Shown in pieces: positions 16,986 through 43,293 of a stretch of 64,000 nucleotides of DNA (within the stretch, counting starts at the first letter, position 1; every line of letters starts with the position of its first letter). A program made the translations under genes and the position numbers. Below the pieces are notes generated by a model, which saw nothing but the letters and a program-made list of their open reading frames with translations, was not told the DNA's origin and made no database searches. Origin of the DNA: Methanosarcinaceae archaeon (GTDB lineage: Archaea > Halobacteriota > Methanosarcinia > Methanosarcinales > Methanosarcinaceae); contig JAMJFS010000009.1 in NCBI GenBank assembly GCA_023544565.1, positions 1 through 64,000 on the forward strand. Direction: 5' to 3'.

Positions 16986-18266
16986 ATAAAACCCATCATT
17001 CAGGTCGCACTTGACCTTCTGGAAATTGACCGTGCCGTGCAGATAGCAAAAGAAGCTGCCATCGGCGGTGTTGACTGGATAGAGGCAGGCACACCACTGA
17101 TCAAGAGCGAAGGTATGGATGCCGTCAGGAAACTCAAGGAAGCATTCCCGGATCGTACAATACTTGCTGACATGAAAACTGTGGATACAGGTGCCATGGA
17201 AGTCGAGATGGCGGCAAAAGCTGGGGCTGATATTGTTATTCTGCTTGGAAGCGCAGATGATGCCACGATCCTTGATTCTGTGCGGGCTGCATGCAAGTAT
17301 GGTGTGAAATTAATGGCTGACCTGATATCTACAGACGAGCCAGTCACACGCGCGCAAGAACTTGAAAAATTGGGTATCGATTTTATCAATGTACATGTGG
17401 GAATCGACCAGCAGATGATGGGAAAAGACCCGATGGATATTCTCAAAGAAGTTTCCTCAAAAGTAAATATACCGGTTGCAGTTGCAGGTGGTCTGGATGC
17501 CACAAGCAGTGCGCAGGCCGTGCGATCCGGTGCAGACATTGTCATTGTTGGGGGAAACATCACCAGGTCAGATAATGTGGCCGGATCAGCACGTGAGATC
17601 CGTGAAAGTGTGGATGCGCCTTCAGGTACTGCGATATCAAAACCATCACTTGATGAAGAGATCCATCAACTCCTGATGAGTGTCTCAACACCAAATATCT
17701 CGGATGCGATGCACCGCAAAGGTGCGATGCAAAATATTCGTTCCATGGTTAAAGGAAAGAAAATGGTTGGCAAGGCGGTTACTGTGCAGACGTTTGCAGG
17801 TGACTGGGCAAAGCCTGTTGAGGCTATAGATGTTGCAGATCCGGGTGAGGTGCTTGTGATATACAATGGCAGCGACCATGTAGCACCATGGGGCGGGCTG
17901 GCAACTCTCAGTTGTCTTAATAAGGGGATCGCAGGTGTTGTGATCGACGGAGCTGTGCGCGACATTGATGAGATCGAGCAACTTGACCTTCCTGTTTTTG
18001 CAAGCAGATGTGTACCAAATGCAGGTGAGCCAAAAGGATTCGGTGAGATCAATGCGGAGATTGTCTGCGGTGCGCAGACAGTCAAACCGGGAGATTATAT
18101 TGTTGGCGATGACAACGGTGTGGTAGTAGTGCCAAAGGAGCGCGCTTATGAGATCGCACGCCGTGCTAAAGAGGTCGAAAAGACTGAAAGACGCCTTTAT
18201 GATGAGATACGAAAAGGGCGTACATTATCCGAAATTATGAAACTTGAAAAATGGGAGAAACGCTAG
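16986..18266 (+). CDS. Bifunctional 3-hexulose-6-phosphate synthase / RraA-like fusion
   Basis: The fusion has 426 residues if translation starts at ATA 16986. The N-terminal domain (~1-210) is an orotidine-phosphate-decarboxylase-like barrel: [13 protein letters not shown], then [22 protein letters not shown], then VAGGLDATS. The C-terminal domain (~225-420) is RraA/aldolase-like ([34 protein letters not shown]-type end). HPS joins formaldehyde and ribulose 5-phosphate; in methanogens it runs in reverse for ribose 5-phosphate supply. The role of the RraA part is unknown. There is no ATG, GTG or TTG in frame between the stop at 16974 and GTG 17037, which lies inside the barrel, whereas GGTGATC sits right before ATA. 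Prepilin peptidase follows directly. Confidence 0.88.
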
Positions 18267-19028
18267 ATGCTGGAATTACTTAAAGTGCTCGTATGCATGC
18301 CTTTCCTGCTGTATTCATGCTACTCTGACATAAAGACACGGCGCGTATCCAACACCGTGTGGCCTGTAATGCTTGCCGCAGGACTGCCTTTTATCATTTA
18401 TGACCTCCTGACCTGTGGTTTCCCATACTTTGTCCACATGGTACTGTCATTTGCATTCATATTTGGATTTGTTTACATCCTGTTCCAGTTAAACGCATTC
18501 GGTGGCGCAGATGCAAAGATTATGATGGTGATATCCATCATTTTCCCTGTATTTCCGGTGATCCATATTTTCGACCAGATCCTGCCGCTTCAGGGAATAC
18601 CACTGATCAACCTGTTCGCATTCAGTGTTTTTAGCAATTCCGTTCTTTTGACGATCATCGTACCAATAGGATTGTTTCTCTATAATCTGGCACACGTGCC
18701 GATCCGTGAAATGCCCAAAAAACTTGGATATATGTTTGTGGGATACAAATCCAAAGTCTTTGACCTGAAGGACAGACACATACGATTGATGGATGTGTAT
18801 GAGCGCACAGATAAAGGAGTTGTGTCGCACTTTACCAGGGGGGGCACTGAACTGGATAATGATGTTGTCCATGAACTTGAAGAATATGTGGAAAAAGGTT
18901 TCATTGATGAGAAGGTCTGGATCACACCCGGATTGCCGTTCATGATACCAATAACAGCAGGATTTATTACGGCAGTTGTTTTTGGCGATCTGATATTTTA
19001 TTTCACACTGAAGTATCTGGTCATGTAG
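18267..19028 (+). CDS. Archaeal prepilin/prearchaellin peptidase (A24, FlaK/EppA type)
   Basis: The protein has 253 residues. It is a membrane aspartic protease that trims class III signal peptides of archaellins and pilins. The first catalytic Asp is in YSDIKTRRVSN (residue ~20) and the second in FGGADAKIM, the GxGD-type motif. About six hydrophobic segments are visible, with a soluble loop of ~75 residues (residues ~150-225) before the last one, as in FlaK. The ATG abuts the stop codon of the hps-rraA gene. It is the likely processing enzyme for the pilin-like proteins at 36274-41117, although 17 kb away. Confidence 0.88.
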   Translation: MLELLKVLVCMPFLLYSCYSDIKTRRVSNTVWPVMLAAGLPFIIYDLLTCGFPYFVHMVLSFAFIFGFVYILFQLNAFGGADAKIMMVISIIFPVFPVIHIFDQILPLQGIPLINLFAFSVFSNSVLLTIIVPIGLFLYNLAHVPIREMPKKLGYMFVGYKSKVFDLKDRHIRLMDVYERTDKGVVSHFTRGGTELDNDVVHELEEYVEKGFIDEKVWITPGLPFMIPITAGFITAVVFGDLIFYFTLKYLVM

Positions 19029-19098
19029 ATTCTTTGTGTTTTAAGTAGCGGAAAGTTTAATGAAGGTATAGTGCCAACCCTAAATTAGGGGTGAGTTA

Positions 19099-19239
19099 GT
19101 GACAGATGATACTGAAAGTAGTAAAAAAACCAAAGAAGAGAAATCATCACAGGATGAAGAAGCCAAAGTTTCACCGATCAGAGTTGGAGATCAACGTGGA
19201 CGCGGCAAGAAACATCTTTTGAGTGGCACTTGCGAGTAA
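19099..19239 (+). CDS. Small charged protein, 46 residues
   Basis: The frame starts at GTG 19099, with AGGGGTGAG just upstream as a ribosome site, and ends at TAA 19239. The product is very hydrophilic: MTDDTESSKKTKEEK at the N-terminus, then SPIRVGDQRGRGKKH and a single Cys in LSGTCE. There are no hydrophobic segments. Codon use and the RBS look genuine. I do not recognise the family. It is 70 bp downstream of the peptidase and could be transcribed with it. Confidence 0.5.
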   Translation: MTDDTESSKKTKEEKSSQDEEAKVSPIRVGDQRGRGKKHLLSGTCE

Positions 19240-19537
19240 TGTTGTAGCAACATTAACTGACGTTTGAAATGTTATTGATAGTATTTTCAAACTCTAAAAT
19301 GACCGATAGGTTTGTTCAAAAACCGTAGCAACAGCCTTCGCCGTAGGCAGCGTATTCCATCATTACCAAACCAATTGCCCAAAACCATAGTTCAACCCCA
19401 TAGCTTAAATATAAAATTCTCAGAATAGCAAATACGCCTACGCTTGAAAACCGTAATGTATTTCATCTTCGTGTTGCAGGAGAGGTGCCACGCTGCGCGT
19501 GGTGGTCGCATTGTTTTCCATATATTTTTAGAATCAT
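19240..19537. other. Intergenic region with GC-rich hairpins
   Basis: I find no gene in these 298 bp. Minus-strand 19358-19336 reads GGAATACGCTGCCTACGGCG, a member of the dispersed hairpin family seen at 4700. A second hairpin, CCACGC/GCGTGG with a three-base loop, lies at about 19488-19502, just beyond the end of recQ. Confidence 0.5.
19336..19358 (-). repeat. GC-rich dispersed hairpin, copy 3
   Basis: On the minus strand this reads GGAATACGCTGCCTACGGCG followed by AAG. Compared with the copy at 4700 most positions match by eye. It lies in the gap between the small ORF and recQ. Confidence 0.4.
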
Positions 19538-21838
19538 TTACTCACACATCATTGCTGCCCTTACCAGTTTTATCTCGCCATAGGAATAATCGTCACCGAG
19601 TTTCGCTTTTATACGCGATAGGAACTTATCCCCAACATCGTTTATTGCATTCTCTATAATGCACTTTTTATCCGGATCGACCATGTGATCGATAGAATCG
19701 ATTCTTTTAGACTGAACCAGAATTTCCATGTGCTCGGCAATTGTGCTTTGGGTCAGGTTTCGTATATGTGCGATCTCTTCGACTGACATGTGCTGTTTGT
19801 AAAGCTCAAGAGTTTCTATCACAGATGAGGACAGGACATCAGGATTCACTGCACGATTTTTTAAAATCTCTGAAATCTTTGGAGGACGCTTTACCGGTTT
19901 TTCTGATTTTGGTTTGGTTTGGTCGTTCGATTGTGTTGGTTTCTCATCATTGTCACAGAAATCTGCGATCTCTGCGAGGAACGTACCCCCGTATTTTTCC
20001 AGTTTATGCTCAGCGACACCTGTTATTTCCAAAAAATCCTGCGCTGTGGTTGGGCGTTTCGCAGCCATTTGCCGCAGGCTTGTGTCTGCAAAAATTATGT
20101 AGGGGGGCAAATTTGCACGATTTGCCAGCGTTTTTCGAAGTACCCTTAGCCTTTCGAACAATTCTGAATCTGTAGCATTTATCGTTTTTGTGGCTGTTGA
20201 TTTTGACTTGGAACTTGATTTTGTCTTAGCCTTCGGCGTAGACTTTGACGCAGCCCGAGATAGTGACTTTGATTTAGATGTCTTTGTAGTAGCGGCACAG
20301 CTTCCCTTTACCGAGATTTTCACCTCATCCGCAGGTTTTGTGATCTGTACGAATTCACTGTCGCCTAAGACCGCCATGCTCTTTGGATTTAATTTCAACA
20401 ATGGATATTTTGTACCTTCAACACCCAGCACTTCAAGCCGCACCAACTCCCGCGCAATTGATTGCCACTGGGATTTAGAATATTCGCGACCCGCACTATA
20501 ACTTTTCAACATGGAATGACGGCTGTTAATGATCTTTTTGGTTTTTGCACCAACCAGCACATCGATTACGTGGGTCATTCCAAATCTCTGATCAAGATCT
20601 TCTACACACAACAGCAGTTTCTTTGCGGCTTCCGTTCCGTCGAACATCTCCTTTGGCTCAAGACATACATCGCAGTTTCCACAATTGTCTTCCTCAACTT
20701 CTTCCCCGAAATATTTGAGCAATACTTTTCGGCGGCATGAGTTTGCTTCACAGTAGTCTATCATTTCGCGCAACTGGACAAGCGCGATGTCGCGCTCCTG
20801 TTTTTTTCCCATTTTGTTTATGAAATATTCGATCTTGTAGCGGTCGCCATGACCAAAGAACAGGATGCAATCACATTCAAGACCGTCCCGGCCACCCCTG
20901 CCGGTTTCTTGGTAGTAACTCTCAAGGTTCTTTGGCAGGTCATAGTGGACGACAAAACGCACGTTGGGTTTGTCGATCCCCATCCCAAAAGCAACGGTTG
21001 CCACGATTATCTGGACATCGTCTTTTATGAACATCTCCTGATTCTTTGTGCGGACTTTATCGGTCAGCCCTGCATGGTATGGAAGAGAACTGAAACCTGC
21101 TTTTTTTAGTTTCTTTGACAGCGTATCCACAGTCTTGCGGCTCTGGCAATAGATGATGCCGCTTTTGCCTCTGGTTTCCCTCAAATATTGAAGCAAATGA
21201 CCATAAGTATCATTTTTTGGTTTTATCCGATAGAATAGGTTCTTGCGGTCAAAACTTGCCACATATGTATTATGCCCCTTGAATTTCAACTCTGAAACAA
21301 TATCATTACGTACCTTTGGTGTTGCAGTCGCAGTCAGTGCGATGATCGGTACGGATGGGAATTTGCCCCGGAGTGTCTTGAGTTTTCGATATTCAGGTCG
21401 AAAATCATGCCCCCATTCAGAGATACAATGGGCTTCGTCAATTGCAAACAAACTAACATTCACACTCTTGAGCAGACCAAGAGTCTCCGTCATCATAAGC
21501 CGCTCAGGTGCGACATAGAGTATCTTCACCCTATTGGCAACTATGGATGCCTTGATACCCTTTATCTCGCTATAACTTAACGTACTGTTGAGATATACAG
21601 CCTCAATACCATTTGCCACAAGGCTGTCAACCTGATCCTTCATCAAAGAAATGAGGGGAGAGACGACAATTGTCATTCCATCCATCAAAAGCGCAGGTAA
21701 CTGGAAACAAAGCGATTTCCCCCCGCCTGTCGGCATCAGCACAAATGTGTCCTTTCCGCTGAGGACATCATTGATGATATCCTCCTGAAGCGGACGAAAA
21801 AGCGTATAACCAAAATATTTCTGGAGTGTTTTGTGCAT
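19538..21838 (-). CDS. recQ: RecQ-family ATP-dependent DNA helicase
   Basis: The protein has 766 residues from MHKTLQKYFGY at 21838; 15 extra upstream residues are possible but not family-like. Helicase core: LFRPLQEDII, PTGGGKSLCFQLPALL, AIDEAHCISEWGHDFRPEY, and VAFGMGIDKPNVRFV to QETGRGGRDG. Then come the zinc-binding cysteines (NSCRRKVLLKYFGE to CGNCDVC), an RQC winged helix, a Ser/Lys low-complexity linker (~525-570), an HRDC domain with ANLPPYIIFADTSLRQMA, and a C-terminal HTH domain (SVEEIAHIRNLTQSTIAEH). This bacterial-like layout with HTH_40-type tail suggests ancient transfer. Role: recombination and fork repair. Confidence 0.96.
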   Translation of the reverse strand: MHKTLQKYFGYTLFRPLQEDIINDVLSGKDTFVLMPTGGGKSLCFQLPALLMDGMTIVVSPLISLMKDQVDSLVANGIEAVYLNSTLSYSEIKGIKASIVANRVKILYVAPERLMMTETLGLLKSVNVSLFAIDEAHCISEWGHDFRPEYRKLKTLRGKFPSVPIIALTATATPKVRNDIVSELKFKGHNTYVASFDRKNLFYRIKPKNDTYGHLLQYLRETRGKSGIIYCQSRKTVDTLSKKLKKAGFSSLPYHAGLTDKVRTKNQEMFIKDDVQIIVATVAFGMGIDKPNVRFVVHYDLPKNLESYYQETGRGGRDGLECDCILFFGHGDRYKIEYFINKMGKKQERDIALVQLREMIDYCEANSCRRKVLLKYFGEEVEEDNCGNCDVCLEPKEMFDGTEAAKKLLLCVEDLDQRFGMTHVIDVLVGAKTKKIINSRHSMLKSYSAGREYSKSQWQSIARELVRLEVLGVEGTKYPLLKLNPKSMAVLGDSEFVQITKPADEVKISVKGSCAATTKTSKSKSLSRAASKSTPKAKTKSSSKSKSTATKTINATDSELFERLRVLRKTLANRANLPPYIIFADTSLRQMAAKRPTTAQDFLEITGVAEHKLEKYGGTFLAEIADFCDNDEKPTQSNDQTKPKSEKPVKRPPKISEILKNRAVNPDVLSSSVIETLELYKQHMSVEEIAHIRNLTQSTIAEHMEILVQSKRIDSIDHMVDPDKKCIIENAINDVGDKFLSRIKAKLGDDYSYGEIKLVRAAMMCE

Positions 21839-35662: not shown

Positions 35663-36229
35663 ATGCAAATTGAAACCATAATGACAGATTCGTGGAACAT
35701 ATTCAAGAACAATATCGTAGCCTTCATCATAGGCACTTTGATAGTAGTTATAGGATCAATATTTATAATCACCATTGCCCCATTGGTTTATGGCTTGACC
35801 TATATGGCAGTAAGAGGAATGAAAGGTGAAACTGTAGAGATAAATGACGTATTTGAAGGATTCAACAACTTCGTACGAAGCTGGGTATTTGTTATAGCAG
35901 CTGTTATACTCATAACTATAGGTTATATATTTTTAATAATCCCTGGAATAATATTAACAATTTTGATGATATATGCGCTCCCACTTCTGGTCTTGAGAGA
36001 CTACGGTGGAATAGATGCAATAAAAGAAAGCATTAACATAGGTAAAGAGAATTTTACGGACACACTTATCCTGTTCGTGATAATTGTCGTATTAAATGCG
36101 ATCGGAGGCTCAATACCTTTTGCTTTTGTATTGATACTGCCATATACCACAATATGCTACACACTGGCGACTTCCAACCTGATAAAAGAAGCACCAATTG
36201 CAACTACAATTGCCGGTGAGATCGAATAA
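35663..36229 (+). CDS. Multi-pass membrane protein (DUF975/DUF4013-like)
   Basis: The protein has 188 residues. Hydrophobic segments include NNIVAFIIGTLIVVIGSIFII, IAPLVYGLTYMAV, WVFVIAAVILITIGYIFLII, GIILTILMIYALPLLVL and TLILFVIIVVLNAIGG. The YGL...VRGMKGE and LRDYGGIDAIKES stretches recall DUF975/DUF4013 membrane proteins. Function unknown. AATGAGGTGACATTTC precedes the ATG. It converges on the pilin-like locus with 44 bp between stops. Confidence 0.7.
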   Translation: MQIETIMTDSWNIFKNNIVAFIIGTLIVVIGSIFIITIAPLVYGLTYMAVRGMKGETVEINDVFEGFNNFVRSWVFVIAAVILITIGYIFLIIPGIILTILMIYALPLLVLRDYGGIDAIKESINIGKENFTDTLILFVIIVVLNAIGGSIPFAFVLILPYTTICYTLATSNLIKEAPIATTIAGEIE

Positions 36230-36273: not shown

Positions 36274-37752
36274 TCAAACAGTTACAGCCGCATCAAGTTC
36301 ATTTTTTGTAATATGCAAGTATGTAATAGCTCCGGGCATACCATCATAATACAGAGTTAGCGTTGATTCTTCATAATTTACAGGGTCCTGCGGCCCCCCA
36401 TCAATACCGAATATTACAGAACCATCCATCGTAAGAAGTTTCATGTAGTGTTGAGTAAGGTTGTTTAATGATAGGGATGAATTAGGATTACTTTCAATTA
36501 TCAAAAGGTCAGGCAGCGTACTCATTTCACCGATCTGACCCCAAGAGAAATCAGGTTCAGCATAAGCATCATTAGAATTACCGTCCTTATATTCCATAGT
36601 ATAATTATCAGACAAAAAATCAACCGTCGCTGTTTCAGGACTCGTTCCTGTTAATGGAATTGCAGCAATATTTGACCAGCGTTCTATATATTCAGAACCA
36701 GCAGCAGTGTCCTGATATTCAACATCAAGTCTCAATCCTGCAGTTTTATCTAATGTATAAGTTAATGTTTTAGTTCCTGATGATGCAGATATATCATAAT
36801 TTGAAGGATTCAGTCCTTGAGCACCACCAGCAACAAAATTAAAGGAAAAGTTGTAGATTGGTGAAGACATTGTAGAATTGAGCGAACCAACCTTAAATGC
36901 ATCCGTTAGCGTGGATTCTCCCATTGGTGGAATTACATCCAGTTCAATAATAGCAGTATTATTTGCAACATCCACAGTTGCACTGGTATATGTCTGACTA
37001 TTTGCATAATTGGCCCATGCATCATAATATTCGCTCTTTATGTAGATAATGACTTTATCAGCTTCAAGTGGATTGACCCTGTTACCTGCCATTGTAGTAT
37101 TTGGGAATAACACAAGAGGCATATTGCTCGAACTGATAGAAACACCCACATCACCAGTACCGCTCACACCTGACCGTCCATTAATCTTCATAAGGGGAAG
37201 AGTGAGCGTTTCACCATTGTAATGGAATTCAGGAGGTGAGATCATAATTGTGCTGCCTGTTGGATATTTTGACCACACACCGCCACCTTCGTATGCGATA
37301 ATACGATCATCAAGACTATATTCTATACTTCCAAGTGAACAATTAAATTCATTAAAACCGCTTCCACCCACATAAGGTTCCCAACTTCCCCATCTATATC
37401 GGTTATTCATAAAAACGGAATTGGCGGGATTACTAATATCAACAGTGACAATAACTATCTTACTCTCATTATATGCATCCTGATCACCATTAACATTGAC
37501 AGTACCTCCCATAAGTGAAACATACGTGGTCTGGATAGGAGATTCACCAAGAGCCACCTTACTTGTTCGTGAGTCAAAAACCGTAAAAGCCTGCTCAACT
37601 TTTTGTGCCTTTGCCATATCTTCCAATCCATCAAGTGTGGGTACACTGTAAATTAGGAGAGTACTGATAGATAGTATAGTCAAACCTAATATGAGTATAA
37701 TTCCAATAACAGGCGAAACTGCACTTTCTGACCTAAGCATTTTCCAGTTCAC
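36274..37752 (-). CDS. Pilin-like surface protein (DUF7289-like), large
   Basis: The protein has 492 residues from GTG 37752, eight bases after AAGGTG; GTG 37761 and ATG 37740 are alternatives. The N-terminus LRSESAVSPVIGIILILGL is a classic archaeal pilin/archaellin-type start followed by one hydrophobic helix, then a long Thr/Ser/Asn-rich beta ectodomain with several N-glycosylation sites (NNT, NST, NFS, NLT). It is last in a seven-gene minus-strand locus. Its first ~210 residues align in plan with the next gene upstream (VALGESPIQT vs IVFGATPSQS; ISGxGxV blocks), so the two are paralogues. Not a major archaellin by size. Confidence 0.8.
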   Translation of the reverse strand: MNWKMLRSESAVSPVIGIILILGLTILSISTLLIYSVPTLDGLEDMAKAQKVEQAFTVFDSRTSKVALGESPIQTTYVSLMGGTVNVNGDQDAYNESKIVIVTVDISNPANSVFMNNRYRWGSWEPYVGGSGFNEFNCSLGSIEYSLDDRIIAYEGGGVWSKYPTGSTIMISPPEFHYNGETLTLPLMKINGRSGVSGTGDVGVSISSSNMPLVLFPNTTMAGNRVNPLEADKVIIYIKSEYYDAWANYANSQTYTSATVDVANNTAIIELDVIPPMGESTLTDAFKVGSLNSTMSSPIYNFSFNFVAGGAQGLNPSNYDISASSGTKTLTYTLDKTAGLRLDVEYQDTAAGSEYIERWSNIAAIPLTGTSPETATVDFLSDNYTMEYKDGNSNDAYAEPDFSWGQIGEMSTLPDLLIIESNPNSSLSLNNLTQHYMKLLTMDGSVIFGIDGGPQDPVNYEESTLTLYYDGMPGAITYLHITKNELDAAVTV

Positions 37753-37790
37753 TTTTAACACACCTTGTTTCCTTTTTTTCGATCAGACAC

Positions 37791-38573
37791 TTAGTCGACC
37801 GTAACGCTCATCGGAGAATAAATGACATGCACATCAATATTATCAGGAGAATATATCTTTTGCAAATGCACGGTTGTATTTGTATGATCGAAACTCACAA
37901 AATTCATTCCCAGATCATCTGTGTCATTGAGATATCTCTCCCACGCCTTGTAATACTTGCTTTTAATTGTAATATCCACCTGCGATACATTATAATAACT
38001 ATACACAGAAGCCACACCACCATCAGACGTCACGCGTACAAGCCCTACTCCAGATATGCCTGTTGAACCGGATATCATCACCGCAGGTATTGTGAGTACA
38101 TCATCATGCAATACAAAACGAGGTCGCGACACCATAACTGCATCGCCTAATGGATACTGTGCCCATGTACCGGTATCCTCATAACATATATACCGATCTT
38201 CATACTCATTCTGGATCATTCGCATCTGCCTCTCGAACGTATAGGATTCAATAGTCGAATTTAATCCATTCCATGCCTGTACAGTCACATTGATAGCACT
38301 ATCCCCGGTTACTGAAACAAGACCACCATATAACTTCAATTCAACAGACTGTGAAGGAGTAGCACCAAACACTATTTTGTTGATGTTCGCCGTAAGAACT
38401 ATGAAACTCTGCCTGACATTCTCTGCATGGCCTGATTCCTGCATGTGTTCTACAAGCGGAAAACCTGCAACACCGATCACAGCAACCGCTAAGAGCATTA
38501 TTCCAAGTATAATGCTAAAATCAACAACCTCTGAAACTGCATCTTCCGATCTTAGAATTCTTGTCAATTTCAT
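37791..38573 (-). CDS. Pilin-like surface protein (DUF7289-like), small paralogue
   Basis: The protein has 260 residues. N-terminal MKLTRILRSEDAVSEVVDF is followed by helix SIILGIMLLAVAVIGVAG. The ectodomain matches the first half of the 492-residue neighbour: KIVFGATPSQSVELKLYGG, DRYICYEDTGTWAQYPLGD, MISGSTGISGVGLV and IKSKYYKAWERY. It looks like the parent form to which the larger neighbour added a C-terminal domain. It is expected to be cleaved by a FlaK-type peptidase such as that at 18267, but the SED-AVS context is less canonical than KG-Q. Confidence 0.8.
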   Translation of the reverse strand: MKLTRILRSEDAVSEVVDFSIILGIMLLAVAVIGVAGFPLVEHMQESGHAENVRQSFIVLTANINKIVFGATPSQSVELKLYGGLVSVTGDSAINVTVQAWNGLNSTIESYTFERQMRMIQNEYEDRYICYEDTGTWAQYPLGDAVMVSRPRFVLHDDVLTIPAVMISGSTGISGVGLVRVTSDGGVASVYSYYNVSQVDITIKSKYYKAWERYLNDTDDLGMNFVSFDHTNTTVHLQKIYSPDNIDVHVIYSPMSVTVD

Positions 38574-38626
38574 GCGTCTGGATCATTTCCTGTTTTTATA
38601 TATCGTCTATACCTATCAGTAACATC

Positions 38627-39103
38627 TTAATAAACTTCAATTAAATTAGTAGATGGATTGTATAATAAATAATGCTCACCTGCAGCACTGTATATCTTCG
38701 TTGATGAAACTGTGGTTGTCTGTGTAACATAAGGAATCTTGGCTATAGTCTCCAGACGGTCATCCGATCCAAATATGATCTCACTGGTCAGGTTTGAGAA
38801 CTCAACCGAATAATAACTGCCTGCTATCTTATCAGGCAAAGATACTTCATAACGTATTTCACCGATGCTACCTCCCGAACTTAGAGAGACATTAACGATA
38901 GTATCAATGTTCGTGAGCTGAACCGCAATATCGTTACCATGTATTTCAAACTCCGCCCGTAACACCGTATGTTCAGCCTGGTAAAGCATGCCATAGAATG
39001 TCTGCATTATCATTAAAAAAGCGATGACAGTTATTGTAAATGTCAATATGAATCCAATTGATATGGATACTGCATTATCATCGTTTAAGATATCTCTTTT
39101 CAT
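38627..39103 (-). CDS. Minor pilin-like protein (DUF7266-like)
   Basis: The protein has 158 residues. MKRDILNDDNAVSISIGF leads into a helix with TFTITVIAFLMIM and a beta-rich outer part containing YEVSLPDKIAGSYYSVEF. The N-terminal DNAVS motif and hydrophobic helix match the other locus members. The gap to the upstream gene is 8 bp, so it is in the same transcript. Likely a minor subunit of a type IV pilus-like filament; that is inferred from the locus. Confidence 0.75.
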   Translation of the reverse strand: MKRDILNDDNAVSISIGFILTFTITVIAFLMIMQTFYGMLYQAEHTVLRAEFEIHGNDIAVQLTNIDTIVNVSLSSGGSIGEIRYEVSLPDKIAGSYYSVEFSNLTSEIIFGSDDRLETIAKIPYVTQTTTVSSTKIYSAAGEHYLLYNPSTNLIEVY

Positions 39104-39111
39104 GATAACTC

Positions 39112-39972
39112 CTATGGAATGGAAATCGGTGTCGATATATTAATTATTGTCTTTCCTGAAGATGTACTGACGGTAGCATTTGTCATCTTGTACCTGACAC
39201 GTGAAAATGGCGTACTACCAGTTCGGTTTCCTGATATTGTAAAATATCCGAGAGCATTGGTGCCATTCAGGAACTTTAACTTATATGTCTCATTTGCGGT
39301 ATATTCCCCAAGATGGAAATCGAAATTAGCACCATTATCAATTGAATTATTTGTTATGTTCAAAGAGTAAAAGGATGTTGTCCTTTCTTCAATTATCGCC
39401 ATTGATTGGTTTAAAACAGTAATATTTACATTTGTACTATCGTCATACACTTTTACTGACCACAACGAAATATCTGAAACGTTTATTGCTTGGATCGTAA
39501 ACGCATTAGTAGCATTTCCAAGAACGGTTGTATCATATATCTCTATTGAGAATGAATCCGTTGAATTAACATCTGCTATAACAATCCAATCGGATTCGCC
39601 ATCCGAAAGTCCGTCATCTGTAAAATAACCATCATAAAAAGTACTGTTTTGAACATTAAATGATACGCCTGAAAGTGCATACATAGATGCAGCCTTTTTG
39701 TTATAACTGGACATGTACTGATTGAAAAGTGTTTCATTGAATGGTGTTTGGTTCTGTATTGCATAACCATATGCACCACTAAATGCATCGGATGACATCT
39801 GTTTGGCATTTGAGATGTGATAACGATTTGAATCAATACTCGATTCTGATGCCATGTTGCTTGCAAAGATGATATTGTTTAGCATGATAGTTGAAACTAC
39901 AATAGCAAGCCCTATTGTGAATCCGGCTATTAGGATCAGTTGTGCAGAATCATCCATTTTTCTCATTGCCAT
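39112..39972 (-). CDS. Pilin-like protein (DUF7261-like)
   Basis: The protein has 286 residues. AAAAAGGATGT before ATG 39972 supports the start. KMDDSAQLILIAGFTIGLA begins the hydrophobic helix (to about residue 32); the remainder is a Ser/Thr/Asn-rich ectodomain with many Asn-X-Ser/Thr sites. The DDSAQLIL start resembles the larger minor pilins (PilX/PilV type) of haloarchaeal type IV pilus clusters. It is separated from the next gene upstream by 25 bp. Confidence 0.75.
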   Translation of the reverse strand: MAMRKMDDSAQLILIAGFTIGLAIVVSTIMLNNIIFASNMASESSIDSNRYHISNAKQMSSDAFSGAYGYAIQNQTPFNETLFNQYMSSYNKKAASMYALSGVSFNVQNSTFYDGYFTDDGLSDGESDWIVIADVNSTDSFSIEIYDTTVLGNATNAFTIQAINVSDISLWSVKVYDDSTNVNITVLNQSMAIIEERTTSFYSLNITNNSIDNGANFDFHLGEYTANETYKLKFLNGTNALGYFTISGNRTGSTPFSRVRYKMTNATVSTSSGKTIINISTPISIP

Positions 39973-39997
39973 ACATCCTTTTTATCGATCTCATATC

Positions 39998-40618
39998 TCA
40001 CATTCGCCAAAGTATAAGTTTCACATTAATAATATTGTAAAGATCCGTAGTATCATCTATATCAACTATGCCCGTATTTGCCTGAAATGTGGAGGTATTC
40101 CCAATATCAGGATTTGACAATACTACTTTTCTTGAGATGATAACTGCATTGTCAGACGGATCGCCATTATATATGTAAAATATTGATGAGAATCTTCCGG
40201 TATCACTCATATGAGTGAATTGGACATTATGCGCAATTCCGCGCGGAATTGCAATATATGTAAGCATGTCTGTTATGGAACTATTAAGAGTGGAGCTTGC
40301 ATTTGGAGTGTCTGAATAATATGAGGTGCCGTTCCACACATATTCATTACCATTCCAGTTCAATATATCATTTTTCAGGTCTGATCTTTGATCATACTGT
40401 GAATAATCAAGTGCACTTAGCATATCCTGCCCGATTACCTGAAGCTGTGCTTCAATGTGAGCATTTGCGGTCGATGATGTAAGCGGAGTAAGTGATGTTG
40501 CCTGAACTGCAAAAACAATGATCATAACCATAATTGTTGAAGCCATGATCGCTTCAAGGGTGTGCATCTGTGCCAACTGGTCATTTTCTAATCCTAATAA
40601 TATGTCATTGCGGTTCAA
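39998..40618 (-). CDS. Pilin-like protein (DUF7288-like)
   Basis: The protein has 206 residues. The N-terminus NDQLAQMHTLEAIMAST is followed by the hydrophobic MVMIIVFAVQATSL. The Glu at +5 relative to the presumed cleavage site is the assembly residue seen in type IV pilins. The outer part has Asn-X-Ser/Thr sites (NGTS, NASS, NSS). The stop of the upstream gene lies 1 bp away, so the two are tightly coupled. Confidence 0.78.
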   Translation of the reverse strand: MNRNDILLGLENDQLAQMHTLEAIMASTIMVMIIVFAVQATSLTPLTSSTANAHIEAQLQVIGQDMLSALDYSQYDQRSDLKNDILNWNGNEYVWNGTSYYSDTPNASSTLNSSITDMLTYIAIPRGIAHNVQFTHMSDTGRFSSIFYIYNGDPSDNAVIISRKVVLSNPDIGNTSTFQANTGIVDIDDTTDLYNIINVKLILWRM

Positions 40619-40619
40619 A

Positions 40620-41117
40620 CTACCACACCCTTATCGATACGATCCTTTTTTCTGTTACGCCTGTATCAGCATTCATGAAAAGTACGATCCTTTTTGTCTG
40701 TCCAACATTTCCAACAGATGGCAGCACTGCACCAGCCGATTTTATAATACCAGATGATTCATTTTCCATAGTGACATTTACGTCGTAGTCAACATATGTG
40801 CCATCTAACCCTAATGATGTACGAGTACCCCCATAATCTACATTGAGTAATGTGAAGAATGCATCCGTCTCTGTTGAAGTTACAAGATTTGGTACTGCCA
40901 CGTCCCCTGCACTCATGATATTCTCAACAACCAGCGTGGACACCCTATCAGCCAGCAATGTAACTTCATCCGAATTTGATTCGAAAGGAGTGAACAATCC
41001 TGAAATATACTGGAATACAAAAAACATTGCAAATAAGAAAATGGTTATACTGATCAAATAATCGATCGTGACCTGACCTTTGTCATTGGTCTTGTATTTT
41101 TTATATTTCAAACCCAT
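40620..41117 (-). CDS. Pilin-like protein with canonical class III signal (DUF7287-like)
   Basis: The protein has 165 residues from ATG 41117. Signal: TNDKG / QVTIDYLISITIFLFAMF. Cleavage after Gly with Gln at +1 is the textbook archaeal class III signal peptide, with Asp at +5. The ectodomain includes DRVSTLVVENIMSAGDVAVP. First of the pilin-like series behind the FlaD/E-like gene, separated from it by 79 bp. Confidence 0.82.
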   Translation of the reverse strand: MGLKYKKYKTNDKGQVTIDYLISITIFLFAMFFVFQYISGLFTPFESNSDEVTLLADRVSTLVVENIMSAGDVAVPNLVTSTETDAFFTLLNVDYGGTRTSLGLDGTYVDYDVNVTMENESSGIIKSAGAVLPSVGNVGQTKRIVLFMNADTGVTEKRIVSIRVW

Positions 41118-41196
41118 CGTCAAACCCTTGTGAATTAGTTAGTAGATCACATGTGATGCCCTTATGAAAAAACTAACACCTGCGTAGTAAAGCGGA

Positions 41197-43293
41197 TTAT
41201 ATACCATAGATTTCCGTACCTTTCTTTACCCTCTCTATATCTCTTTCAATTATTGATAATTTGTTTTTATCAACCTTGACGCCTGCGAGTTTTTCAATGA
41301 ACCAGATTGATTTCACATGTTCATCCGGATTCAATTTCCAGTCCGGTTTTTCAGCATAATAATTAATGCCTTCTGCATACTGCATAAATTCCAGACGTAC
41401 ATCATCACTTATCCAACCTAATTCTTCATAATAAGATAATATATCAGGCAGGTTATTGCGCCCAACAAGTTCCATTAAAAATTCAAGCCATTCCATGCAA
41501 AGTTTCATGGTCGATGAATTCTTTTCAATATGAGCCAAATGGACATCTTCCCCGAATGATTTATAACTTCCAGCACCTGCTTTTTTGAGTCCTTTTTCCA
41601 CATACTCCGTGACCAATGCCATCTCTTCGAGAAGGGCTGCATTTTCAGACTTAGTTTCATCTTTCAAAAACTTATTTGCTTCATGCGCCTGTGCAATGTC
41701 TTCCATAAGTACAGAGGCAATATTCTCAAACTCTGTAATTCTTTTGGCTGCAATTACCTGATTATTCTCGATTTGAGATGTCTTTGATTCAATGATATTG
41801 ATCCGATCAACTTTTGCATATATATCTTCAAATCTTGCATCATTGCTTTGTGTAGTTTCGTACATCTGCGACAAAAGAGCACCATATGAACTGACCAGCT
41901 CAGAAATATTCTGCTCAATGTTGGACAATCCCTTTTTTAATTCTGTATTGTCGGATTGTATCAATGTCAGAGTATTTTCAAACCCATCCATCCTGTTTTC
42001 AATTGAAGATATCTTTTCCTTTGCAGAATCAAATCCAATCGTTACATCAGAATTAAAATCATCAGCATTTTTATTGATCTCTTTAATTGACTCGTTGGAA
42101 CTTTTCACAGCATTTGAAATATCCTTAATATCATTTACAATCTCATCAAGGAGTGACTTTGAACCTGCGATCTCATCTCTCAGATCATCTACATCTTTTG
42201 CTCTGGCGGGAATCTCAGCAAGAGTTTTAGGTTCTATAGGTTTATCTGAAACCCCTTCAATCGGTTTCTCAATAAGCGACAGAATATCTTTCTTGTTAAA
42301 TTCATCAAATTGTTCTAAAAGTACCTCTTCAGACTCCGGTTCTTTTACTTTCAACACTTCCATTTCTTGCTGTGGAAACGGCATTGGTTTTTCCATTTCC
42401 GGCAGTCCCAGAATTTCAGGAGCTGCATCAAATCTTGGTGCTGTAATAATTGATTTACTGGCTTCTTCATCCCTCAACCGCACTTCCTCAGCAACTTCCA
42501 CTTCCTCGCGCAATTCTTCCATCCTGTCAATCAAACTACCGCCTCGCATGAGGCTTTTAAATATTGTCTTGAATGATCTTGCAATGCCATCCATCATTTT
42601 TTTAGGAATACCATCCTGGAAGGAAGATCTTATAAACGGCTGTGGATGGGAATCAGGAGTGAGAGGAAAAAGTGATGCACCAGAGTCAGGAGTGGGAGGA
42701 AAAAGTGATGCACCAGAGTCAGGAGTGGGAGGAAAAGGTGATACATCAGAGTCCAGAATAGGTGGGAACTGTGATACACCAGAGTCAGGGGTGGGAGGAA
42801 AAGGTGATACATCGGAGTCAGGAGTGGGAGGAAAAGGTGATACATCGGAGTCAGGAGTGGGGGGAAAAGGTGATGCATCAGACTCAGGAGTGGGAGGAAA
42901 ATATGATACATCGGAGTCATTACCCTTTTGATTCGTTTCTTCCGGTTCCTGCCCATAAATTTCAAATGCAGGAGATGTTTTTGGTTCAAATAATGGACGA
43001 GGAGAAGATTTTGAAATGTCACCTTTGTAGGAATCAATCTTTTCAGGCCCGAATATATCATCAGATAATGGAATATCCGCCCCATCATCATCAGCCTCGT
43101 TTTCTTGTATATTTTTAGATAAAGCGTTTATTACCGGGATCTCAGGTGGTTTTTTCAGGTCTATTTTATGAACATGGGTCATCTCTTCTATGGGATTTTT
43201 AACAAGGCCATCATTTAAAACGTCAGAAAATGGGATACCCTCAGACGACTCTTTATCAAAATCCTTCTTTTTATCCCAGGGAATATTACTCAT
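41197..43293 (-). CDS. FlaD/E-domain protein with proline-rich repeat
   Basis: The protein has 698 residues and no signal peptide, so it is cytosolic. Residues ~128-218 hold eight 11-residue units of type SPFPPTPDSDV. The middle (~385-560) is a long predicted coiled coil (SLLDEIVNDIKDISNAVKS, then ENRMDGFENTLTLIQ). The last ~105 residues (MKLCMEWLEFLMELVG, LSYYEELGWISDDVR, SIWFIEKLAGV) match the FlaD/FlaE domain of archaellum motors. It heads the operon of pilin-like genes. It may act as a scaffold at a pilus motor, but the ATPase and platform genes are not in this window. Confidence 0.82.
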   Translation of the reverse strand: MSNIPWDKKKDFDKESSEGIPFSDVLNDGLVKNPIEEMTHVHKIDLKKPPEIPVINALSKNIQENEADDDGADIPLSDDIFGPEKIDSYKGDISKSSPRPLFEPKTSPAFEIYGQEPEETNQKGNDSDVSYFPPTPESDASPFPPTPDSDVSPFPPTPDSDVSPFPPTPDSGVSQFPPILDSDVSPFPPTPDSGASLFPPTPDSGASLFPLTPDSHPQPFIRSSFQDGIPKKMMDGIARSFKTIFKSLMRGGSLIDRMEELREEVEVAEEVRLRDEEASKSIITAPRFDAAPEILGLPEMEKPMPFPQQEMEVLKVKEPESEEVLLEQFDEFNKKDILSLIEKPIEGVSDKPIEPKTLAEIPARAKDVDDLRDEIAGSKSLLDEIVNDIKDISNAVKSSNESIKEINKNADDFNSDVTIGFDSAKEKISSIENRMDGFENTLTLIQSDNTELKKGLSNIEQNISELVSSYGALLSQMYETTQSNDARFEDIYAKVDRINIIESKTSQIENNQVIAAKRITEFENIASVLMEDIAQAHEANKFLKDETKSENAALLEEMALVTEYVEKGLKKAGAGSYKSFGEDVHLAHIEKNSSTMKLCMEWLEFLMELVGRNNLPDILSYYEELGWISDDVRLEFMQYAEGINYYAEKPDWKLNPDEHVKSIWFIEKLAGVKVDKNKLSIIERDIERVKKGTEIYGI
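42640..42912 (-). repeat. 33-bp coding tandem repeat (FPPTPDS units)
   Basis: Eight near-perfect 33-bp units encode the consensus DS(D/G)(V/A)SPFPPTP. Variation is limited to a few positions, implying recent expansion. Length polymorphism between strains is likely. Confidence 0.9.

Follow-up and report, generated by a model that had tools for sequence, protein, structure and literature searches.

Do seven adjacent archaeal genes, the first encoding a protein with an archaellum FlaD/E domain and the other six encoding pilin-like proteins, build one surface machine or contribute to two? The question is posed by a stretch of 64,000 nucleotides (the window; positions 1 to 64,000 of contig JAMJFS010000009.1, here C72) from the genome of a Methanosarcinaceae archaeon (1.78 Mb, 72 contigs, 92.5% complete). 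An initial annotation of the window had read the genes as a single pilus-like system with a FlaD/E scaffold. The seven open reading frames were found as described, all on the minus strand and in the order claimed (43293-36274). The single-system reading was not borne out: in several other archaeal groups the pilin cassette occurs without a FlaD/E neighbour, and FlaD/E tracks the archaellum instead. From comparisons among genomes, we consider it probable that the locus is not a new pilus, but two known modules side by side, the pilin set of a PilB4-type pilus and a displaced archaellum FlaD. The closest named relatives of the genome are CSMAG_2493 and HMMV2, both metagenome-assembled genomes. 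HMMV stands for the Haakon Mosby mud volcano, where anaerobic methanotrophic archaea of group 3 (ANME-3) live, and the organism is therefore probably an ANME-3 relative.

The pattern of gene loss among 112 Methanosarcinaceae genomes bears directly on the question. Presence and absence were compiled by hand from profile-match lists, leaving out G356, in which both FlaDs were present and FlaJ was not found, possibly owing to a contig break. From six cassette-bearing genomes the archaellum was gone, and no more than short fragments of FlaJ remained. In five of these six, the canonical cassette was kept and intact FlaD was gone. Degraded pieces of FlaD were still recognizable beside the cassette in four archaellum-less genomes (L134, L091, L138, L135), and in G343, likewise archaellum-less and cassette-bearing, not even a FlaD remnant was found. 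The reverse was seen in two Methanococcoides genomes (G342, G253), which had lost the canonical cassette and kept archaellum and FlaD, the latter at the same site (L136, L147); in G253 this is the same AtpD-linked site (L147). Intact long FlaD was present in 46 of 49 genomes with an archaellum versus one of six without (Fisher p 9e-5, kinship ignored), while presence of the cassette and presence of FlaD were uncorrelated (p 1.0, kinship again ignored). The comparison provides strong, though not conclusive, evidence that across the family FlaD is kept or lost together with the archaellum and not with the pilins.

The FlaD gene (41197..43293, minus strand) encodes a protein of 698 aa. The initial annotation had described it as cytosolic, ending in a FlaD/E domain and containing a coiled coil as well as a proline-rich repeat, and this description was accurate. 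There is no transmembrane segment, the N-terminal half is disordered and Pro-rich, and the C-terminal Arch_fla_DE domain (PF04659, residues 582-671) is matched at E 5e-28, its 97 bits being far above the cut-off (21). The FlaC profile gave a weak match of 24.6 bits, below its cut-off of 27.8, and no FlaC match was obtained for the other long FlaDs scanned. A search of solved structures with the DE domain returned no relevant sequence match, and a fold search with the domain model (predicted local distance difference test score, pLDDT, 78) nothing at E below 1. As anticipated in the initial annotation, FlaH and FlaI are encoded elsewhere, in an archaellum locus on contig C55 that comprises FlaC-DE, F, G, H, I and J. 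Its single DE protein is shorter (414 aa) and carries a FlaC domain (1.5e-17, 64 bits). In a tree of DE domains, the long FlaDs formed one clade (support 97/93), apart from the clade of FlaC-DE proteins from archaellum loci; order-level relatives (L148, L149) joined the long FlaD clade with support of 99/98. In Methanosalsum, a second long FlaD is located among archaellin genes (L081, L141).

Two known systems offer precedents. Methanococcoides burtonii has an additional flaD outside its fla1 cluster (Desmond et al. 2007, PMC1914349), and displaced flaD genes have been described for several archaea (PMC1914349). Like the window protein, the displaced M. burtonii FlaD has an Arch_fla_DE domain without a FlaC domain and is encoded outside a fla cluster that holds a FlaC-DE fusion. 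In contrast to archaellum FlaD, proteins of the window type have a much longer, disordered N-terminal half (446-1056 aa overall), and their genes adjoin the pilin cassette in most genera. In Haloferax volcanii, ArlCE and ArlD bind each other and, via ArlH, the motor (PMC8978795). The arrangement of two DE-domain proteins per archaellum, one with and one without a FlaC domain, is shared, but the sequences are distant. Because the haloarchaeal DE proteins form a clade of their own, one-to-one orthology of ArlD and long FlaD is not established. The extra flaD of M. burtonii has been known since 2007; what is new here is that its neighbourhood has been followed through the family, that cassette and FlaD are seen to dissociate in both directions, and that FlaD is assigned to the archaellum.

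The other six genes form an ordered cassette, DUF7287-DUF7288-DUF7261-like-DUF7266-DUF7289-DUF7289/DUF7308 (window genes 2-7). The initial annotation had proposed a gene-neighbour analysis, which we carried out for Methanosarcinaceae, Methanoperedens and haloarchaea. All six genes recurred, with their order unchanged, at the Methanosarcinaceae loci read and in the two other groups, and only some of these cassettes had FlaD as a neighbour. In haloarchaea, the cassette lies directly behind genes for a PilB ATPase and a TadC protein of about 670 aa (L092-L097, L099, L104). This resembles the euryarchaeal clade-2 (PilB4-type) type IV pilus (PMC4858521, Fig. 4B), which also has several distinct pilins per operon. 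Its signature minor pilin, arCOG02911, is duplicated and about 250-550 aa long (Makarova et al. 2016, PMC4858521), a description that, by size, duplication and context, fits the short and long copies of the window DUF7289 pilin (260 and 495 aa). The window locus differs in having no engine of its own (the candidate is on contig C25) and in the FlaD gene that precedes the cassette. For euryarchaea, it is normal that pilins are encoded apart from their engine (PMC4858521). The identification of window genes 2-7 as the pilin set of a PilB4-type (clade 2) type IV pilus is well supported by these sequence comparisons.

The likeness of the window proteins to pilin families is beyond chance, as judged by Pfam E-values; NCBIfam returned nothing useful for the seven proteins. 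All six genes are on the minus strand. Protein 2 (40620..41123, 167 aa, with a possible ATG start at 41117) belongs to DUF7287 (PF23958, E 2e-32), protein 3 (39998..40618, 206 aa) to DUF7288 (PF23959, E 1e-44), protein 5 (38627..39103, 158 aa) to DUF7266 (PF23928, E 4e-8), and protein 6 (37791..38573, 260 aa) to DUF7289 (PF23960, E 3e-27); for proteins 2, 3 and 5 the position in the cassette is conserved as well, in the case of protein 2 across Methanosarcinaceae, Methanoperedens and haloarchaea. Protein 4 (39112..39972, 286 aa) is called DUF7261-like on the basis of its position and a family hidden Markov model in relatives, the match to PF23922 being below cut-off (E 0.018). Protein 7 (36274..37761, 495 aa), a paralogue of protein 6 whose outer part is long, matches PF23960 (E 3e-24) and the DUF7308 family PF23985 (E 1e-14), and its Pilin_N match (E 1e-4) is just below cut-off.

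Exactly one hydrophobic segment near the N-terminus was found in all six proteins, as the initial annotation had stated. Its other generalizations held in part. A prepilin motif had been claimed for all six; clear archaeal motifs were present in four, KG|QVTIDY in protein 2, NA|VSISIG in protein 5, DA|VSEVVD in protein 6 and SA|VSPVIG in protein 7. The N-termini of protein 3 (...LAQMHTLEAIMAST) and protein 4 (DDSAQLILIAGF) are less canonical, and the pilin nature of both is suggested by their position in the cassette, together with the DUF7288 match in the case of protein 3. Outer domains rich in Thr, Ser and Asn were confirmed for most of the proteins. Their Ser+Thr+Asn fractions of 0.21-0.33 are mostly well above the background of 40 other open reading frames in the window (mean 0.16, standard deviation 0.03, maximum 0.22), but protein 6 (0.21) falls inside the background range. 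An AlphaFold model of protein 6 has a single N-terminal helix of 58 residues followed by a beta-rich domain (pLDDT 89); this is a pilin layout, and a fold search with the model gave only low-probability matches and no match to a solved pilin.

Processing and assembly of these proteins would depend on genes elsewhere. The prepilin peptidase that the initial annotation had placed at 18267 (18267..19028, plus strand) is indeed an archaeal prepilin/pre-archaellin peptidase homologue (Peptidase_A24, E 5e-16; Arc_PepC_II, E 9e-32) and a candidate for cutting the six pilins. No homologue of FlaH, FlaI, FlaJ, PilB or PilC was found on the window contig; the initial annotation had noted that they are missing from the locus. 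In the genome, C25, C26, C55 and C66 gave matches, and C22 and C15 gave weaker ones. There are three non-archaellum PilB loci (C25, C26, C66) and one archaellum locus (C55). C25 encodes a PilB of 794 aa and a TadC of 728 aa. Alone of the three PilBs, that of C25 shares the PilB3_N and PilB3_C domains (3.5e-11, 9.5e-8) with a haloarchaeal cassette-linked ATPase; they are absent from C26 and C66. The C25 type was also the only non-archaellum PilB type present in all five cassette-bearing Methanosarcinaceae sampled. The PilB/TadC pair of C25 is thus most likely the engine partner of the window pilins.

In the two-module reading, the prepilin peptidase would process the six pilins, and a PilB/TadC pair encoded in trans, most likely that of C25, would assemble them. 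The long FlaD (ArlD) would be the displaced second cytosolic scaffold/switch subunit of a fla1-type archaellum, with the FlaC-DE (ArlCE) protein of the C55 operon as its partner. Its C-terminal DE domain may dock at the FlaH/FlaI motor ring, its coiled coil may oligomerize, and the long disordered Pro-rich N-terminus may extend into the cytoplasm.

Several observations weigh against this assignment. The window FlaD, on C72, is not a member of the archaellum operon on C55, though such membership is not strictly required, given the displaced flaD genes of several archaea. That FlaD adjoins the cassette in six genera is hard to put down to chance, even if AtpD and DapF also stay in this block. 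One genome (G212, L133) has an intact FlaD, only a divergent cassette and just a FlaJ fragment, and three genomes (G018, G354, G355) have an archaellum and no long FlaD. In one f3 genome, a relative from the FlaD clade is encoded about 4 kb from a PilB of the C25 type (L149). A kinship-aware test of the loss pattern had three resolved independent pairs, which agreed in 2.7 of 3 on average and never opposed the association, and it stayed below significance because only about three independent losses were resolved. On the pilus side, the assignment of C25 relies on domain content and co-occurrence; in the ATPase tree, the cassette-linked haloarchaeal PilBs formed their own clade, and the branching order inside clade 2 was not settled.

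A block of AtpD, in some cases DapF, FlaD, the cassette and a membrane protein gene is conserved fully or partly across six genera (g1, g3, g5, g6, g8, g12), and the arrangement is therefore probably old. FlaD stands directly upstream of the cassette on the same strand in these genera, with a spacing of about -11 to 73 bp counted from the first possible start codon. Such conservation over the family would fit a single machine built from all seven genes, as in the initial annotation; it would be a type IV pilus in which an archaellum-type FlaD scaffold ring has been recruited around the pilus's own PilB/TadC. However, haloarchaea, Methanoperedens, Methanolobus and Methanomethylovorans have cassettes without a FlaD neighbour, archaellum-less genomes keep the cassette and lose FlaD, the two Methanococcoides genomes do the reverse, and the presence of one does not predict that of the other. 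We regard a single machine as quite unlikely.

The order of FlaD and cassette in six genera also makes co-regulation of swimming and attachment possible, though unproven. FlaD could be an archaellum-side subunit that is deliberately co-expressed with minor pilins, so that pilus and archaellum are coordinated in a swim-or-stick switch. Both the conserved adjacency and the archaellum-dependent retention of FlaD would fit, and in Haloferax motility is inhibited when the pilB3 pilus locus is expressed, according to a passage of PMC4858521 that cites the finding. On the other hand, FlaD is located away from the cassette in Methanolobus and Methanomethylovorans, and the 73-bp gap between the FlaD gene and pilin gene 2 in the window contains a T-run and TATA-like stretches, which makes co-transcription uncertain. 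We hold this explanation to be rather doubtful, and give a similarly small chance to its more specific form, in which the long FlaD would be a coupling subunit on the archaellum motor through which pilus building alters swimming, a genetically encoded switch specific to Methanosarcinaceae. A link of chemotaxis to pilus or archaellum through CheF, suggested by the binding of CheF to haloarchaeal ArlCDE (PMC8978795), is very improbable. Of 24 Methanosarcinaceae genomes searched, 22, among them that of the window, yielded no CheF-family protein, and we rejected FlaD as a CheF adaptor for this reason. The two genomes that do have CheF (G243, G253) encode, within about 10 kb, an additional divergent FlaJ that belongs to the other archaellum type. 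In the archaellin locus of Methanosalsum, a CheF-like gene (L141:14023-14616) was dropped, its match (E 0.002) being below cut-off. Most of the genomes without a recognizable CheF, the window genome (G000) and 21 others, have an archaellum.

Some further features were noted in the neighbourhood and in related genomes. Convergent with the far end of the cassette is a conserved gene for a small membrane protein whose membrane domain is of the glycerophosphodiesterase type (35663..36229, plus strand; PF10110, E 1e-8). Its homologue adjoins the cassette or the long FlaD at most loci read, including those where FlaD has been relocated (L083, L085, L087). A second, divergent pilin cassette lacks a DUF7308 pilin, has a DUF7287-like protein that is long (about 320-330 aa), and is often in tandem with the canonical one (L089:9309-12423; L111:8250-11319 and 17163-19998; L139:13439-16526; L165). 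Directly behind the PilB/TadC genes of C26 lies a transposase-like gene (L073:12998-13777) with a sub-threshold DDE domain. ANME-related genomes contain a two-gene unit (L128:3640-10564; L129:251-3987; L130:1902-4905; L131:1-3559; L132:3337-6124) whose first gene encodes an actin/MreB-like protein (matching MreB_Mbl at E 4e-28 and 7e-21, and also Salactin) and whose second encodes a protein of 559-1940 aa that begins with a divergent Arch_fla_DE domain. Two PilA-like pilins are encoded behind this unit in L130. It could be a cytoskeletal anchor for archaellum or pilus.

Two machines that a reading of gene neighbours would merge are separated by this analysis. For annotation in Methanosarcinaceae, a FlaD/E gene beside pilin genes should not count as part of that pilus, and for these methanogens and the ANME archaea related to them, the fla1 archaellum gains a likely missing second scaffold subunit. 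Strains of Methanohalophilus and Methanococcoides, archaellated and not, are a natural test set. If it is true that the adjacency is regulatory, it would open a direct way to study how archaea decide whether to swim or to attach.

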